A stretch of 36,839 nt of DNA from positions 1 through 36,839 of the forward strand of contig CAISIO010000016.1 in NCBI GenBank assembly GCA_903885445.1, in the 5' to 3' direction. The DNA comes from Candidatus Staskawiczbacteria bacterium (GTDB taxonomy: Bacteria; Patescibacteriota; Minisyncoccia; Minisyncoccales; Staskawiczbacteraceae). The translations under genes were made by a program, and so were the position numbers. Positions 3,481-35,175 of the stretch are shown in pieces. Under the pieces are notes generated by a model. The model did no database searches and was not told the origin of the DNA. It saw only the letters and a list, made by a program, of their open reading frames with translations. Within the stretch, counting starts at the first letter, position 1. Every line of letters starts with the position of its first letter.

Positions 3481-4158
3481 CTATCTCACGTTTAATGTTC
3501 TTCTTGAAACTGTTGTTTGAATGGTTCTTACCGGATTTTCACTGTCGCCCGCAATTTTAACATTTAAAAGCACTGTCACTCTCGGCTGGAGGCATTGGTC
3601 CGCCAAATTTCCGCACTGCATAATTCCGCACTGGTTCGGATCACTGCACCCCATTCCGCTCACCGACCCATCGGTTCCATTTATTGCAAACCTGACCGGG
3701 TTTGTGAGATCAATTTGCGTATTGGTTGAAGTAAGCGCAACCGGCGAACCATTATTCCTTACCTCCTTTAAAACAGGATGCTGGGCGTCGGTATTGTCTA
3801 CAAAAAATTCCTGGCAGATAGGATCATCATCAGAAGAAGCGCCAGATTGATTCAAAAATTTGATTCCCCTACAAACTCCAGTTTCGCAATGCTTAAGCAT
3901 ATAAATATATCCTTTGGGCAAGCAAGCTGCGTCAGAGTCGGTTGATGCCGCTTTTGCCATTCTTAATGCCTTTGACATATATTCTTCCACATAACTGATT
4001 TGATTTAGAAGCTCCTGCTCAGCTAAAACTTTTTTCTGATTTTGAAAAATAGAAATAAAAATAGAAATGGCAGCTCCAATAATAAACAAAAATATGGCAG
4101 TAACCACAACCAGTTCTATCAAAGTAAACCCTTTATTTTTTTTATTAATACCAGTCAT
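3481..4158 (-). CDS. Prepilin-type N-terminal cleavage protein, PilW-like minor pilin
   Basis: 225 aa; KNKGFTLIELVVVTAIFLFIIGAAISIFISIF class III prepilin signal. Confidence 0.85.
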   Translation of the reverse strand: MTGINKKNKGFTLIELVVVTAIFLFIIGAAISIFISIFQNQKKVLAEQELLNQISYVEEYMSKALRMAKAASTDSDAACLPKGYIYMLKHCETGVCRGIKFLNQSGASSDDDPICQEFFVDNTDAQHPVLKEVRNNGSPVALTSTNTQIDLTNPVRFAINGTDGSVSGMGCSDPNQCGIMQCGNLADQCLQPRVTVLLNVKIAGDSENPVRTIQTTVSRRTLNVR

Positions 4159-6994: not shown

Positions 6995-7681
6995 CTATTT
7001 TTTAAATCTATATTTTAAAAGCGTTAAAACCGCCGTAATGCCGTCTTTAAATTTGATTTTCTTGCCCTGTTCTTTTCCTCTCGCGTTATAACTTATCGGC
7101 ACTTCAAATATGCTAATTCCTTTTTTCGCAATTTTAGCCGTCACTTCCGGGCAAAATTCAAACCCTCTGCTTTCAATTTCAATCGACTTTAAAACATCCG
7201 CCTTAAAAAGCTTGTAGCAGGTCGGCTCGTCAGTCAGGCGTAAACCGTAAAGCAAGTTAGTCAAAAGCGTAATCACTCTTCCGCCCAAATAAAACATAAG
7301 TCCGCCCCTTTTGCTTTTTCCTAAAATGCGCGAACCGTAAACAACTTTTGCGCTTCCGTTTATTATTGGAGTCAGCAATTTGTTATAATCAGCCGGATCA
7401 TACTCCAAATCCGCGTCTTGAATAATAATAAAATCTCCGGTTGCCATTTTTACTCCATCTTTCACCGCACACCCCTTTCCCCCGTTTTTTTTGCGCTCTT
7501 TTATAACCAGACCATATTTATTCTCTAATCCTTTAACAATTTTTAGAGTGTTATCAAAAGAGCCGTCGTCAACAACAATAATTTCTTTCTCAACAGGCAA
7601 AACAACCTCCCCGATTTTTTTAATTATCTGGCCAATTGTTTTTTCTTCATTAAAAGCCGGAATGATTATTGACAGCTTCAT
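6995..7681 (-). CDS. Glycosyltransferase family 2, dolichol-phosphate mannosyltransferase-like
   Basis: 228 aa; [20 protein letters not shown]...[13 protein letters not shown]...[11 protein letters not shown]. Confidence 0.9.
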
Positions 7682-10125
7682 TAATTAATTCGCAATATTT
7701 TACCTTGCAAAACGTCTTCTTCTGAAACTTTTATATTCTTTGAATAGCTTCCTATTTTAATTAAATAACCGCCGGCTAAAATATCAGAATTTTTCTGCGT
7801 TCCCGTTGAATACGGAACAACAAATTCAAAGTTTCCATTTTCATCCGCGACAACTTCGTTTTGATAAATAAAATCTCTTTTTTGATTAGTTGAAACCTCT
7901 GTTGAAAGCGCCACCTCTGAACCGGGCGTCGTCCTGCCGGTTATTTTTGCTCCTTTTACGTATTCAAAAACTTTTACTTGCTTGGTTGTTTTATAATCCT
8001 GCTCCCAAAAAATAGAATTGTCGCTTTTTGATTCGTAAACCAATCTGAAGCTGCTAAGCGCCGGTATGATTAAGTTTACTTTATTTTTTTCAACTGTTTT
8101 GGGCAGCGAAACTAAAGAGCCGTCCAAAAAATACAGGCGGGTGCTCATTGCCAAGTCATACTTTGTCGGTTCGGTTTCAGAAATATTGTCGCCTACGTAG
8201 TCGTCCATATTAGCGTTTACCCAGCGGACGTAAGAAGCAAAAACGCCATTGGGGTTGGAAAATCCAGAGTCAACAATAACGTATTTTGCGCCAAGCTCGT
8301 CTAAATATCCCGTTGCCTTTTTTTCATCTGTTGAAAGAAAGAAAGTTCCTTCGCCCGGCTGGACAGTCCCATCATTGTTTATATATCCGATGCCTTCCTG
8401 AAACGGATTGGAAACCGGAATTCTATGGCTATAATAAGTTATGTCGTGCCCGACATCCCATTGCGCCAAAATGCCGTATGCTTGCGAGGGATATTTATAC
8501 GGCTGAGAGGCTTTATACAGCGAGTAATAATCTACGCCGGGGTCGGGAGTATTGGTTTTAAGCCATTTTAAAGTATCGTACCAATCTGCGCTAAGCGCGG
8601 GTGAGCTTACAGCTATGCCAATAGCGCCCTGCATAAACGAAGGCAAATTTGATGGGAAGGGGTCGTCTATATTAAACGGAAATGGATAGAATAAGAAAAA
8701 AATAACATTAAATAATATAACTACCGAGCTTACATAAAAGTAAAAACGCAGATAAGATCTTTCGGCAAATTCATCTGCCTTCCTAAGCGCTTGCCAGCCC
8801 AATTTAAAACCCTCAATAATTATAAAACTTGCAAGTAAAGATATAATTACCGAAAGATAATAAGAGTTTCTGTTTTGTCCAAAAGCAGGGATAATACCTA
8901 CGGCAAACAAAATAATCGAAGTCCAGATAAAAAGCAAAAATTGCTCGGGTTTCTTCTCTTTTATAAATTTGTATAAAGATACGCACAATGATACTACAGA
9001 CAGATAAAAAAGAGCAGAAAAAGCGTTAAACGCCCCGCGAATCCTAATTGGCGACATCTCGCCGACAAACTGCCTTGCAGATTTATTGTCTACCATGCCA
9101 GAATTAACTTCCATGGCGGTTTTTATAAAAATATTCCAGACAAACGGCGCCACAAATTTTAAAGCCAACGCAACAATCATCCCGCCAGCAAGTAAAATTA
9201 CCGGCAAAAAATACCTCTTAATATTTTTCTTGCGTAAATAATTTCCAAGGAATCCCATTACCGCAAACACCAAAATACCGGCAACAAAACATAAAAAGTG
9301 CTGAATATTATATATTCTGCCGGTCACAAAATCAGGGTTTCCGAAAAACGGGGCAATCATTAAAAGCGCAATTAAAAAAATCACGCCACCTGACAGCAAA
9401 ATCCATTCTTCGTTGCCGCCCTGTAAATACCTGATTAAGTAATAAAGAGAAATAAAACAAAAAGTAATAAAAAGAAAAAGCAGGGCGCCGGTCCAGGTTA
9501 AAAAATACAACCCCAAAGAAACGCCCGCTAAAACCGTCCACAGCCAAAATATTTTCCCTTTTTTTGGACCGGTTATTAAATAAACCAAAAACAATACAAA
9601 AAGCGATGAAAAGAAAACCTCGGCAACATGGTGGTCTGTAATGCCCAACAAAGACCTGCCCAGAAAGGGCGGCATCACGGCAATTAAAAAAGCTGAGAGG
9701 ATAGCAATTGGATTCGACCAAATTTTCTTTCCGATAAGATAAACTAAAAATACAACCAAACCGCCCATGACAGCCGGATAAAACGGCGCAATTTTGTTTA
9801 TTAATTCCAGCGTTGGCTTGCCAAAACTAACCAGCCATATAATTAAACAAAGCAAAAAGTCGTATAAGGGTCCAAAATGTATGTATGTTCCATAGGGAAA
9901 ATAAGTATAAGGGTCAAAATTAATGCGCCAGGGAAAATGATTGCCCAAAAGCTCGTTTTCAACCAGGCGCATATGATAGACTCCGTCATCTGGAGAATAT
10001 TTTACCAGGCCCGAAGAGTAATCTGCCATCACCGCGCCATAGCTGAAATAAATCCTCAAAAAAAGGGCGAGGGCGAATATGGCAACAATTAAAATTACAG
10101 TGATAATTTTAGCTTTTGTTTTCAT
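7681..10125 (-). CDS. STT3/PglB/AglB-family oligosaccharyltransferase
   Basis: 814 aa; multi-TM N-terminal half with [15 protein letters not shown] and [16 protein letters not shown] motifs, and a [20 protein letters not shown] segment corresponding to the STT3 WWDYG region. Confidence 0.85.
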
Positions 10126-10199: not shown

Positions 10200-10640
10200 T
10201 TAATGGCAGGTAAAAGCAGGCCCGCTAATGTCATTACAAGCCACTGTATAACAATTTCCAGCCGAAATATCTCTCATTGTCTTTTTTCCCGTGGAATCAA
10301 CGCAGAAAGCATTGTTTTTATTAGTGACCAATCCTGAACAGGTACACCAATTTGTACCATTGGCGTAGCACAACGCATTCAATCCAGAAGCAACATTGGA
10401 TATTGCGTTAAGAATAGAATACCCGTATGTTGCGCAAACATTAGTGCTTGTGTTATTATAGGTTCCGGTTTTCTCAAAAACTACTGCCGCGTCTGTCATG
10501 AGCGAGGACAGGTTGCCCTTGATGGCTGCGTCCTTGCCTTTGTTGATAAACCCTGTAACGTTAACCAGCACAATAGCGGCCAATACCGCGATGATGGCAA
10601 TAACCACGATTAACTCAATGATTGTAAAACCTTTTTGCAT
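10200..10640 (-). CDS. Type IV major-pilin-like protein (copy 1); ORF can extend to 10652
   Basis: MQKGFTIIELIVVIAIIAVLAAIVLVNVTGFINKGKDAAIKGNLSSLMTDAAVVFEK; Cys-rich C-terminal half with WCTC...FCVDSTGKK. Confidence 0.92.
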   Translation of the reverse strand: MQKGFTIIELIVVIAIIAVLAAIVLVNVTGFINKGKDAAIKGNLSSLMTDAAVVFEKTGTYNNTSTNVCATYGYSILNAISNVASGLNALCYANGTNWCTCSGLVTNKNNAFCVDSTGKKTMRDISAGNCYTVACNDISGPAFTCH

Positions 10641-10697
10641 ATTAAACATCAAATTATGTTTATATTCTACTATTTTATCATAAAGCCGTTACAAAAC

Positions 10698-10746: not shown

Positions 10747-11187
10747 TTACGGACAGACGAACGAGGAGGCGCAAGTAGTCGCCGCGCAGTTTGCCGCTGT
10801 AGTTTCTTTTTTTGTTCCGGTGTAGTCAACACAGAAATAATTACCGACAGTGTTCACTAATTGTGCGCAGGCGCACCATTGAGTGCCGTTATTGCCACAA
10901 TTCATCAAATTACTATTTGAGCCAGCACCGATCATAGCGTTTTTAATTGCTGCCCAAGGACCAGAAGCGCCGCAAACGCTATTAGTGGCGTCTGTGTTAT
11001 ATGCCGCATTCTTTTCGAAAACTACTGCCGCGTCTGTCATGAGCGAGGACAGGTTGCCTTTGATGGCTGCGTCCTTGCCTTTGTTGATAAACCCTGTAAC
11101 GTTAACCAGCACAATAGCGGCCAATACCGCGATGATGGCAATAACCACGATTAACTCAATGATTGTAAAACCTTTTTGTTTTTGCAT
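10747..11187 (-). CDS. Type IV major-pilin-like protein (copy 2)
   Basis: 146 aa; MQKQKGFTIIELIVVIAIIAVLAAIVLVNVTGFINKGKDAA..., variable C-terminal half with WCACAQLV...FCVDYTGTKK. Confidence 0.92.
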   Translation of the reverse strand: MQKQKGFTIIELIVVIAIIAVLAAIVLVNVTGFINKGKDAAIKGNLSSLMTDAAVVFEKNAAYNTDATNSVCGASGPWAAIKNAMIGAGSNSNLMNCGNNGTQWCACAQLVNTVGNYFCVDYTGTKKETTAANCAATTCASSFVCP

Positions 11188-11225: not shown

Positions 11226-11269
11226 CGCCCAGCGATTAACGCCGGGCGCCAGGTGTTCATCACCCGGCG
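11226..11269 (-). promoter_or_regulatory. Twin-hairpin 5'-leader element (copy A)
   Basis: Minus strand: CGCCGGGTG-ATGAA-CACCTGGCG overlapping by CG with CGCCCGGCG-TTAAT-CGCTGGGCG; 39 nt upstream of the pilin copy 2 ATG. Confidence 0.7.
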
Positions 11270-11358
11270 ACCTTTAGAATAAGTTTTCCCTTATTATACA
11301 ATAAAGACAAACAATAGTGTATGTGTATAACTCGCGCTTGTGGATAAACGGCACAAAT

Positions 11359-11390
11359 AAAAACACCCCGCTTTTAAACGAGGTGTTTTT
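11359..11390 (-). terminator. Terminator downstream of pilin copy 3
   Basis: aaaaacaccccgcttttaaacgaggtgttttt stem-loop. Confidence 0.75.
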
Positions 11391-11403
11391 AAATCTTAAA
11401 TCT

Positions 11404-11844
11404 TTATGGGCAAACTGTCGCGGTCCAAGCGGTAACACAGGTTGCGGCTGCAATCGTCTTTTTTGTTCCAGTCGAGTCAACACATAGGGCGTTAACTTTA
11501 TCGTTTACCAATTGAGCGCAGGCGGCCCAAGTAGTTCCAACTGTAGCTGTTTCGCTGATGTCCACGTTACAGGCGGACTTTCCAGTGTCTCCTCTTGTTG
11601 CATCCACTGCATCCAGCGCAGCCTTAACTGTAGCGCTCGTGCAAAGACCCGTGTAGGTGCTGCTGTGTGTATCATAGAAAACTGCTGCATTTGTCATGAC
11701 GCTGGCCAAATTTCCTGTAATTGACGCATCTTTTCCTTTTGCTATATACTGGGTGACGTTAACCAACACAATGGCGGCCAATACCGCGATGATGGCGATA
11801 ACAACGATTAATTCAATGATTGTAAAACCTTTTTGTTTTTGCAT
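11404..11844 (-). CDS. Type IV major-pilin-like protein (copy 3)
   Basis: 146 aa; MQKQKGFTIIELIVVIAIIAVLAAIVLVNVTQYIAKGKDAS...; WAACAQLV...LCVDSTGTKK. Confidence 0.92.
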   Translation of the reverse strand: MQKQKGFTIIELIVVIAIIAVLAAIVLVNVTQYIAKGKDASITGNLASVMTNAAVFYDTHSSTYTGLCTSATVKAALDAVDATRGDTGKSACNVDISETATVGTTWAACAQLVNDKVNALCVDSTGTKKTIAAATCVTAWTATVCP

Positions 11845-11894
11845 TTTTTATTGTTTTAATTAATTTTTTCTTAATTTATTATCTTAAGCAGATT

Positions 11895-11938
11895 CGCCAA
11901 GTGATGAACACCTGGCGTCCAGTGTTAATCACTGGACG
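11895..11938 (-). promoter_or_regulatory. Twin-hairpin 5'-leader element (copy B, internally inverted relative to copy A)
   Basis: Minus strand: CGTCCAGTG-ATTAA-CACTGGACG overlapping by CG with CGCCAGGTG-TTCAT-CACTTGGCG; upstream TTGTAG-17-TAAAAT promoter-like sequence; ~50 nt upstream of the pilin copy 3 ATG. Confidence 0.7.
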
Positions 11939-12009
11939 ACCTTTATAATAGTTTCCTCTATTTTACAAGATTAAAGCTGGCGCTACAATACAAGGGGGCT
12001 GTGGATAAC

Positions 12010-20548: not shown

Positions 20549-20613
20549 ATTTTAGCTATTTATTTTTTTTGATTTTATTATTCTAATCGACCTTTACTTT
20601 TTTTATTATTCCA

Positions 20614-33891: not shown

Positions 33892-35175
33892 CTACCTCCC
33901 GGCGGGTCTTTCGGGGGGACGAACGTCCCTACCTTCCGCCGGCGTGGCGGGCCTGACTTCAACCCACCTTCCCGGCAGCCTCTTGGTGCCCTCCTCAAGC
34001 CGCGAAACCTTGCCCTGCAACGTCGGGATGTCGGCGCTGTCGCTGCCCCAGAGGTGCTCATGCATTCTGTCCACCCTTCTGGCGGTCTCAGTTGCGCCTT
34101 CGTCGACGTCGCCAAGAATCTTCTTGGTGACGATGAGATCGGTGCGATCTCTAACCGCGTCAACCTGCAACTGCCCGATGTCCTTAGCGCCCTTCTTGGC
34201 GAGGGCGTCGGCGCCCTCGGCGATGTTCACGCCCTTGCGAGCCGTGTACAGCGCTTCGTTAGCGGTGTCTTCAATCGCCAACGGTTTCATCAGCAAGACG
34301 AATGCGTCGCCCTGCTGAACGGGACTGCCTTCCAGGAAATCCCTGGCCAACGTCTGGTTGGCCATCGCGAACAAGACGATTGTCTTAGCCCGCGAAATGA
34401 GCTGGCGTTTGGCCTCATCCTTGGCCACATAGGCATCCTCCGCTCGCTCGTCGAGCGCACGGAGACCAGCCTCATCCAACGTCACCAGCGACCTCAGACC
34501 GTCCTTCTGCCTGTCCCTGTCGGACAAGCAGGCCAGGATTTGGTCTACCCGTCTGCTGGTCAGGCGGTCTCGCCTAACCTCAGGCACTTCCCGAGCCTCC
34601 AAGGGCAGCGGTTCCGCTTCCCTGGGAACCGGCCTGACCTCCAGAGTCCTGAGCCGGCCTTCCAGACCGGTCAGGCCGTCCCTGGTCGCCGCCCTAACAT
34701 TCCTGTCGAGGCGGCCAACTAGGGCCCTGCCGAGCTTGCCCGTGTTGGGGTCCAAGGCCTTGCCGAAGTCATCCAACTTGGCGTCCTGCTTGCCAACCTT
34801 GTCGAACACCTTCACCATGTTGGCGTCGAGGCCAGCCATCTTCTGGTCGCTCTTGCCGGCCAAATGGCCGGTGTACCAGTATCCTCCCGCGATGCACAGC
34901 CCCAAGACCACGACGGCGGCGATGCCGCCGATAATGGCCCTGGTAAGGCTGGTCATGGGTGTCCTCGGAGCAGGTCCGAGAGGTGGCCCAGCGGGCGGGA
35001 CGAGCGGAGACGGTACAACCGCCGCTGCTACTCCTACCGCCGGAGGCGGTGGCGGAGACGGTACAACCGCCGCTGCTACTCCTACCGCCGGAGGCGGTGG
35101 CGGAGGCGGCGGGCTACCCGCTCCTCCTCCTGCCGCTGCCGCTGCTGCTGCCGCTCTTCGTGATGCTGATGACAT
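33892..35175 (-). CDS. GC-rich ORFan: Ala/Pro-rich low-complexity N-terminus, single TM, extended charged/coiled-coil domain
   Basis: ~427 aa from MSSASRR (ATG at 35175, SD GGAGAAGGACC); TM SLTRAIIGGIAAVVVLGLCIAGGYWYTG. Start trimmed from the track's 35193 because of SD position. Confidence 0.7.
   Translation of the reverse strand: MSSASRRAAAAAAAAGGGAGSPPPPPPPPAVGVAAAVVPSPPPPPAVGVAAAVVPSPLVPPAGPPLGPAPRTPMTSLTRAIIGGIAAVVVLGLCIAGGYWYTGHLAGKSDQKMAGLDANMVKVFDKVGKQDAKLDDFGKALDPNTGKLGRALVGRLDRNVRAATRDGLTGLEGRLRTLEVRPVPREAEPLPLEAREVPEVRRDRLTSRRVDQILACLSDRDRQKDGLRSLVTLDEAGLRALDERAEDAYVAKDEAKRQLISRAKTIVLFAMANQTLARDFLEGSPVQQGDAFVLLMKPLAIEDTANEALYTARKGVNIAEGADALAKKGAKDIGQLQVDAVRDRTDLIVTKKILGDVDEGATETARRVDRMHEHLWGSDSADIPTLQGKVSRLEEGTKRLPGRWVEVRPATPAEGRDVRPPERPAGR
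35005..35100 (-). repeat. 48-bp tandem repeat, 2 copies plus partial third, encoding a PPPPPAVGVAAAVVPS-type 16-aa repeat
   Basis: cggagacggtacaaccgccgctgctactcctaccgccggaggcggtgg at 35005-35052 and 35053-35100. Confidence 0.9.

Follow-up and report, generated by a model that had tools for sequence, protein, structure and literature searches.

Copies A and B of a 44-nt twin hairpin, which lie in the leaders of two type IV pilin genes on a Candidatus Staskawiczbacteria contig, are best explained as insertions rather than as a switch dedicated to the pilins. We consider it probable, though well short of certain, that a small element dispersed among Patescibacteria, and linked to tRNA-invading GIY-YIG elements, was inserted here twice at a TCGA site. 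The window, by which we mean the whole stretch of DNA analyzed, spans 36,839 nt, and the relevant features are collected in Table 1.

Table 1. Features at copies A and B in the window, and loci at which a GIY-YIG ORF accompanies the element
Feature	Position	Strand	Details and basis
Copy A, twin-hairpin element CG-hp1-CG-hp2-CG	11226..11269	(-)	hp1 11249-11267, hp2 11228-11246; sequence, fold, family model
Copy B, twin-hairpin element	11895..11938	(-)	hp1 11918-11936, hp2 11897-11915; sequence, fold, family model
Leader motif AAAGGTCG at copy A	11268..11275	(-)	TCG is the left insertion edge; element-free motif in pilin leaders of genus relatives
Leader motif AAAGGTCG at copy B	11937..11944	(-)	Sequence and pilin leaders of genus relatives
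-10-like TATAAT, upstream of copy A	11293..11298	(-)	Sequence; putative promoter
-10-like TAAAAT, upstream of copy B	11960..11965	(-)	Sequence; putative promoter
Type IV pilin gene downstream of copy A	10747..11187	(-)	Pfam N_methyl, E 2e-9
Type IV pilin gene downstream of copy B	11404..11844	(-)	Pfam N_methyl, E 2.1e-9
Copies with GIY-YIG ORF in gap			L025/L085, L024/L086, L077/L088, L078/L116, L115

Twin hairpins in two pilin leaders

Both pilin genes share a leader order of -10-like hexamer, AAAGGTCG, 44-nt twin hairpin, A/U-rich stretch, and ATG. The initial annotation of this DNA had described the two twin hairpins and, just upstream of each, a promoter-like -10; both observations hold, the hairpins far above chance and the -10-like hexamers at a distance of ~20 nt. 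The 5′ flank that it gave as AAAGGT is indeed conserved, but the full conserved flank is longer, namely AAAGGTCG. When folded, the minus (mRNA) strand of each copy forms two adjacent hairpins with 5-nt loops and 8-bp stems (7 bp plus one pair supplied by the CG dinucleotide), with energies of -31.4 kcal/mol for A and -26.5 kcal/mol for B (z of -6.4 and -7.1, with no shuffle as good); on the plus strand, three pairs turn into A-C mismatches. Equally strict twin hairpins on the minus strand of the window comprise A, B, and one weaker site at 9184, and 60 shuffles of the window gave a mean of 0.38 and a maximum of 3. The element returned no Rfam match at the gathering score or at E ≤ 1, and the leader of a third pilin paralogue (10200-10652) has neither the AAAGGTCG motif nor the element.

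Two further observations concern the surroundings of these genes. An AglB/STT3-type oligosaccharyltransferase gene (7681-10125) lies directly downstream of the pilin genes, which suggests that the pili are glycosylated. Between 33800 and 36500, the ORFs and the 48-bp GC-rich tandem repeats (35004-35147) differ from the AT-rich remainder of the contig, and this part is possibly a foreign stretch or an assembly join.

Copies A and B had been noted to match better when one of them is inverted, and the manual counts given for this (37/44 inverted, 32/44 direct) are exact. Over 153 pairs of family members, however, mean identity is 31.7/44 in the direct and the inverted orientation alike, with 28 of these pairs reaching 37/44 in one orientation, and L014, a copy from another genus, matches A and B at 39 and 40 of 44 positions, in each case better than the two match one another. 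Because the element family is dyad-symmetric and its direct and inverted identities are equal, the inverted resemblance of A and B is nothing special. The family-wide comparison rules them out as a specific inverted pair, and an inversion event between them need not be assumed; the suggestion of an invertible element is likewise not supported, orientation being uninformative in a dyad-symmetric element.

The element family and its place beside tRNA genes

We searched with two covariance models, the first made from copies A and B and the second from 12 copies. The first model matches A and B alone in their own genome, where a loose pattern marks ten other places (nine of them read out), none with the stems. 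Copies were found with the first model in 10 of 36 genomes of the family, and with the second in 25 of the 247 order genomes (where a few low-scoring matches are doubtful) and in 11 of 384 genomes drawn from the class; some weak matches (L060 and, as displayed, L052) show no twin hairpin and are left out of the counts. Among 84,980 species genomes, the exact 24-base 5/5-loop pattern occurs in seven stretches, all titled Patescibacteria or Candidatus Staskawiczbacteria. In the viral contigs of IMG/VR, neither the 5/5 nor the 4/4 loop class has an exact pattern match. The open-access literature searched yielded no description of a twin-hairpin element of this kind.

The covariance-model search, which the initial annotation had proposed, thus brought up many copies in the genomes of relatives, and their covariation is strong. 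In the 12-copy alignment, 97.4% of twin-hairpin cells are paired and 29 cells are changed on both sides, so that the compensatory stem changes first noted between A and B are real and hold across the whole family; none of 500 shuffles scored as high. Because the model that recruited the 12 copies had the fold built in, the covariation leans towards that fold, but an artefact is unlikely given that slid controls reached 42% or less and that independent regularities emerged later. Covariation for a single long hairpin across the whole element fell below that of its shuffles, and this structure was rejected. Kissing between the loops of A and B, a further suggestion, is possible on paper; across the family, the variable middle loop bases neither covary nor are complementary in more than 2 of 12 copies, and we discarded it as a general property. 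In sense-oriented copies, 513 of 532 stem cells are Watson-Crick, 11 are G-U, and 5 are A-C.

A common unit emerges from the 41 distinct copies that could be parsed, 33 of which are CG-CG-CG. Read from either end, the loop is ATNAA in 40/44 five-nt units and ATNC in 36/36 four-nt units, and one element, in G224, mixes units of both loop classes. As read from these sequences, the element is an inverted dimer of one 18-19-nt hairpin unit with the loop ATNAA or ATNC. A dinucleotide bounds and separates the hairpins, giving CG-hp-CG-hp-CG or, at TTCA targets, CA-hp-TG-hp-CA; among the parsed copies, both TTCA targets carry CA-TG-CA on the sense strand. The flanking dinucleotide tracks the target (CG in TTCG loops, CA in TTCA loops), and the middle one is complementary to the flank; such a pattern would be expected either from a target duplication of 2 bp or from a structural need.

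Most copies lie next to tRNA genes. Among the 46 outside the own genome, 35 follow an intact same-strand tRNA at a distance of 8-277 nt on its 3′ side, another 5 are located 5′ of a tRNA, and for the remaining 6 no tRNA occurs within 400 nt. In the tRNA-linked copies, TTCG (or TTCA) precedes the element and CGANTCC follows it, after which the sequence reads like the remainder of a tRNA 3′ end; the usual site of the element is the T-loop (TTCG|element|CGANTCC) in a second copy of the neighboring tRNA's 3′ end. These tails agree with the 3′ end of the neighboring tRNA at a mean of 0.754, compared with 0.578 for permuted partners (maximum 0.634 in 5000 permutations), and 10 of them are 95-100% identical to it. 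The one clear anticodon-loop case, L018 (the L084 copy at 3739), has the 5′ half of tRNA-Arg duplicated instead. At two loci, element and tRNA tail stand in tandem behind one tRNA, with a 67-bp period in L067 (3280-3393) and an 85-bp period in L248 (1417-1545). A copy with no tRNA nearby, L073 3598-3645 (G213:C1:357597), is ~1 kb from a Y1 transposase gene (G213:C1:356597).

Empty sites and GIY-YIG genes

In nine genus relatives whose pilin leaders could be read (another two contigs stop short of this region), the leader contains AAAGGTCGA or a near variant and lacks the element, so that the wider search of pilin leaders that had been suggested found no further element before pilins in this group. 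These leaders read AAAGGTCG, or ATAGGTCG in G032, always followed by A. The two leaders in the window read AAAGGTCG-element-CGAA, which places the element exactly at TCG|A, and across the family it sits at TC(G/A)|A. Comparable empty sites occur at two other places. In leaders of khpA, a gene named from its sequence character only, AGGTCG is kept in 23 of the 27 inspected, and the element follows AGGTCG in G012 only. The gene for tRNA-Val(gac) lies 0-10 nt from the next gene (pseudouridine-synthase-like) in G000, G028, G029, G031, and G033, and in G034 a ~30-nt spacer, the element, and a second 3′ end stand between the two; the query used to locate these loci becomes inexact beyond about residue 26, with consequences for locus finding only. 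With empty sites in the pilin, khpA, and tRNA-Val(gac) comparisons, insertion is the simplest account, and we infer movement of the element from this presence and absence between relatives.

The AAAGGTCG motif is itself conserved in pilin, khpA, and other leaders, often ~20 nt past a -10 and 40-100 nt before ATG. In the window it occurs at 20588-20595 as well as at the two places in Table 1, and elsewhere in khpA leaders (L174-L200), pilin leaders (L156-L166), and leaders of the own genome (L203, L215, L222, L227, L230, and L231). Genome-wide, the 8-mer is rarer than its reversed control (30 vs. 111). A different hairpin, of a type resembling CACTGAGC...GCGAAGTG, is found repeatedly in the leaders and tRNA spacers of these genomes (L156, L158, and L053).

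All five copies with a gap of more than 250 nt have a small GIY-YIG ORF between tRNA and element, in the orientation of the tRNA (PF01541, E 1.3e-15; solved relatives 1zg2 and 1ywl, UPF0213); the ORF of L116/L078 is broken by a stop codon. The other 30 of the 35 tRNA-linked copies lack such an ORF, which is thus present at 5 of the 46 copies outside the own genome, and none adjoins copies A and B in the window. The only match to the GIY-YIG query in the own genome, L114, is weak and not element-linked. Of the six GIY-YIG proteins in the family that are most similar, five are linked to the element. The association with tRNA genes extends to small GIY-YIG ORFs generally, since 36 of 73 have a same-strand tRNA within 150 nt (21 upstream and 18 downstream, three having both) and none of the 73 has an opposite-strand tRNA within that distance. 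At L122, L126, L146, L109, L123, L112, L129, and L153, the T-, D-, or anticodon loop of displaced tRNA pieces holds hairpins unrelated to the element, as read by eye. Over L085-L154, the loop-filling hairpins in duplicated tRNA pieces belong to several unrelated families. Some small GIY-YIG genes have start codons 1-6 nt past the tRNA end, as if tRNA processing yielded a leaderless mRNA.

Competing accounts and a proposed mechanism

Several other accounts of the element deserve consideration. Selection might favor, at the DNA or RNA level, a hairpin that plugs the loop of displaced tRNA fragments and so prevents misfolding of the tRNA or recutting; such hairpins would arise repeatedly, and the leader copies would be by-products. 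The unrelated twin and single hairpins that fill displaced tRNA loops at the eight loci named above are consistent with this, as is a middle dinucleotide complementary to the flank in CG and CA targets alike; however, the constancy of the ATNAA/ATNC loops is too great for hairpins of independent origin, and members of this family are also found at non-tRNA sites, which makes the account somewhat unlikely. We regard as quite unlikely the structured pilin mRNA leader put forward in the initial annotation, in which the twin hairpin would stabilize or regulate the two pilin transcripts, maybe through loop-loop contact or protein binding. It would fit the placement between -10 and pilin start, the maintained compensatory changes, a perfect fold of A and B on the mRNA strand only (3 G-U, no A-C), and the recurrence in a second kind of leader, that of khpA in G012. 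On the other hand, the readable pilin leaders of genus relatives all have AAAGGTCG or a near variant and none has the element, other copies are nearly all beside tRNA genes and mostly outside leaders, the strand bias (G-U 11 vs. A-C 5 in sense-oriented copies) is not significant, the middle loop bases do not covary, and no known Rfam family matches. A dedicated pilin-mRNA regulator is thus not borne out, and the interpretation first given to these hairpins is, overall, partly supported.

Two kinds of known mobile DNA also come into question. The copies could be remnants of tyrosine-integrase islands at tRNA genes, in which case the 3′-end copy would correspond to the displaced fragment, and the hairpins would belong to the attachment site. 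As described for such islands (PMC4383910), the target tRNA is regenerated, a displaced fragment remains, and the break falls in the T-loop or anticodon loop. All of this has parallels here, where the break lies in the T-loop or, at L018/L084, in the anticodon loop. Unlike those islands, the inserts are ~60-325 bp (gap 8-277 nt), too short for an integrase gene, with hairpins at the junction and GIY-YIG ORFs as the only ORFs present, and the leader copies, which have no tRNA sequence, would go unexplained; we find this origin decidedly unlikely. A REP/BIME element moved by a RAYT (Y1 transposase) is highly improbable. The element is short, palindromic, paired, inverted, intergenic, and dispersed, and the earlier comparison with REP/BIME was to that extent near in kind, but it is not a REP: Y1 transposase (PF01797) is absent from the carriers G000, G034, and G319, where a RAYT may have been lost, although present in six other carriers, and thus is not obligatory; the 41 parsed copies have no consistent GTAG (or GGAG) foot, being flanked by TC(G/A) and CGA/CAA; copy number is low; and the site is fixed at TC(G/A)|A.

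We propose that copies A and B arose by insertion along the following lines. A GIY-YIG nuclease would cut the conserved T-loop GGTTCGA, and the element would enter at the cut; duplication of the tRNA 3′ end in the process would preserve a complete tRNA. Versions that are short and gene-less may be remnants or passengers mobilized in trans. Through its likeness to GGTTCGA, the conserved pilin-leader site AAAGGTCGA would have served as an off-target site on two occasions here, and a further off-target insertion would have taken place ahead of khpA in another genus. Mobilization in trans within the own genome is a conjecture, since L114 is a weak match that has no link to the element. Within the pilin mRNAs, the element would then form a stable but incidental twin hairpin right behind an unbroken AAAGGTCG, and because that motif is left whole, little effect on the pilins is expected. 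A regulatory role could nevertheless have been acquired later in pilin mRNA, whose strand folds better than the complement. The presence of unrelated hairpins at other tRNA-linked GIY-YIG loci suggests that the task of the hairpins in the displaced loop is perhaps structural, a matter of having a hairpin there and not of one element's sequence.

More tentatively, and with some doubt, we suggest that Patescibacteria tRNA genes harbor minimal nuclease-driven elements, in which a GIY-YIG nuclease opens a loop, the tRNA end is duplicated, paired hairpins occupy the displaced loop, and the hairpin pair also moves alone to TCGA sites in leaders. If so, ultra-small genomes hold a very small tRNA-targeted mobile element whose integration logic (tRNA rebuilt, displaced piece hairpin-capped) differs from that of introns, integrase islands, and REP elements, and the many small GIY-YIG genes beside tRNA genes in the family would be accounted for. 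It would also caution against reading covarying RNA structures in mRNA leaders as riboregulators without further thought, since such a structure can instead be a mobile element.

Parts of this scheme resemble known systems. Mitochondrial double-hairpin or repetitive hairpin-forming elements of fungi and sponges are dispersed and thought to be mobile by unknown means (PMC2800124); they too are very short single or double hairpins that are present or absent between relatives. The likeness is one of description, with shared ancestry not expected, and the element studied here stands apart in that it has a bacterial host, targets a fixed TCGA site, combines conserved loops and covarying stems, and is linked to the tRNA T-loop and a nuclease gene. 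T4 SegB is a free-standing GIY-YIG homing endonuclease whose gene lies in a tRNA cluster (PMC2988022), and here as well a small GIY-YIG gene adjoins tRNA genes outside introns; in contrast to SegB-type nucleases, the tRNA 3′ end is duplicated, the displaced copy has hairpins, and the hosts are cells, not phages. Finally, the rRNA genes of CPR bacteria contain homing-endonuclease insertions, over half of them group-I-intron-like with LAGLIDADG proteins (PMC11270868). In both cases stable-RNA genes of CPR genomes are heavily invaded by homing-endonuclease elements, while the tRNA-linked insertions described here involve a GIY-YIG protein and the duplication of a tRNA end, and they lack an intron.
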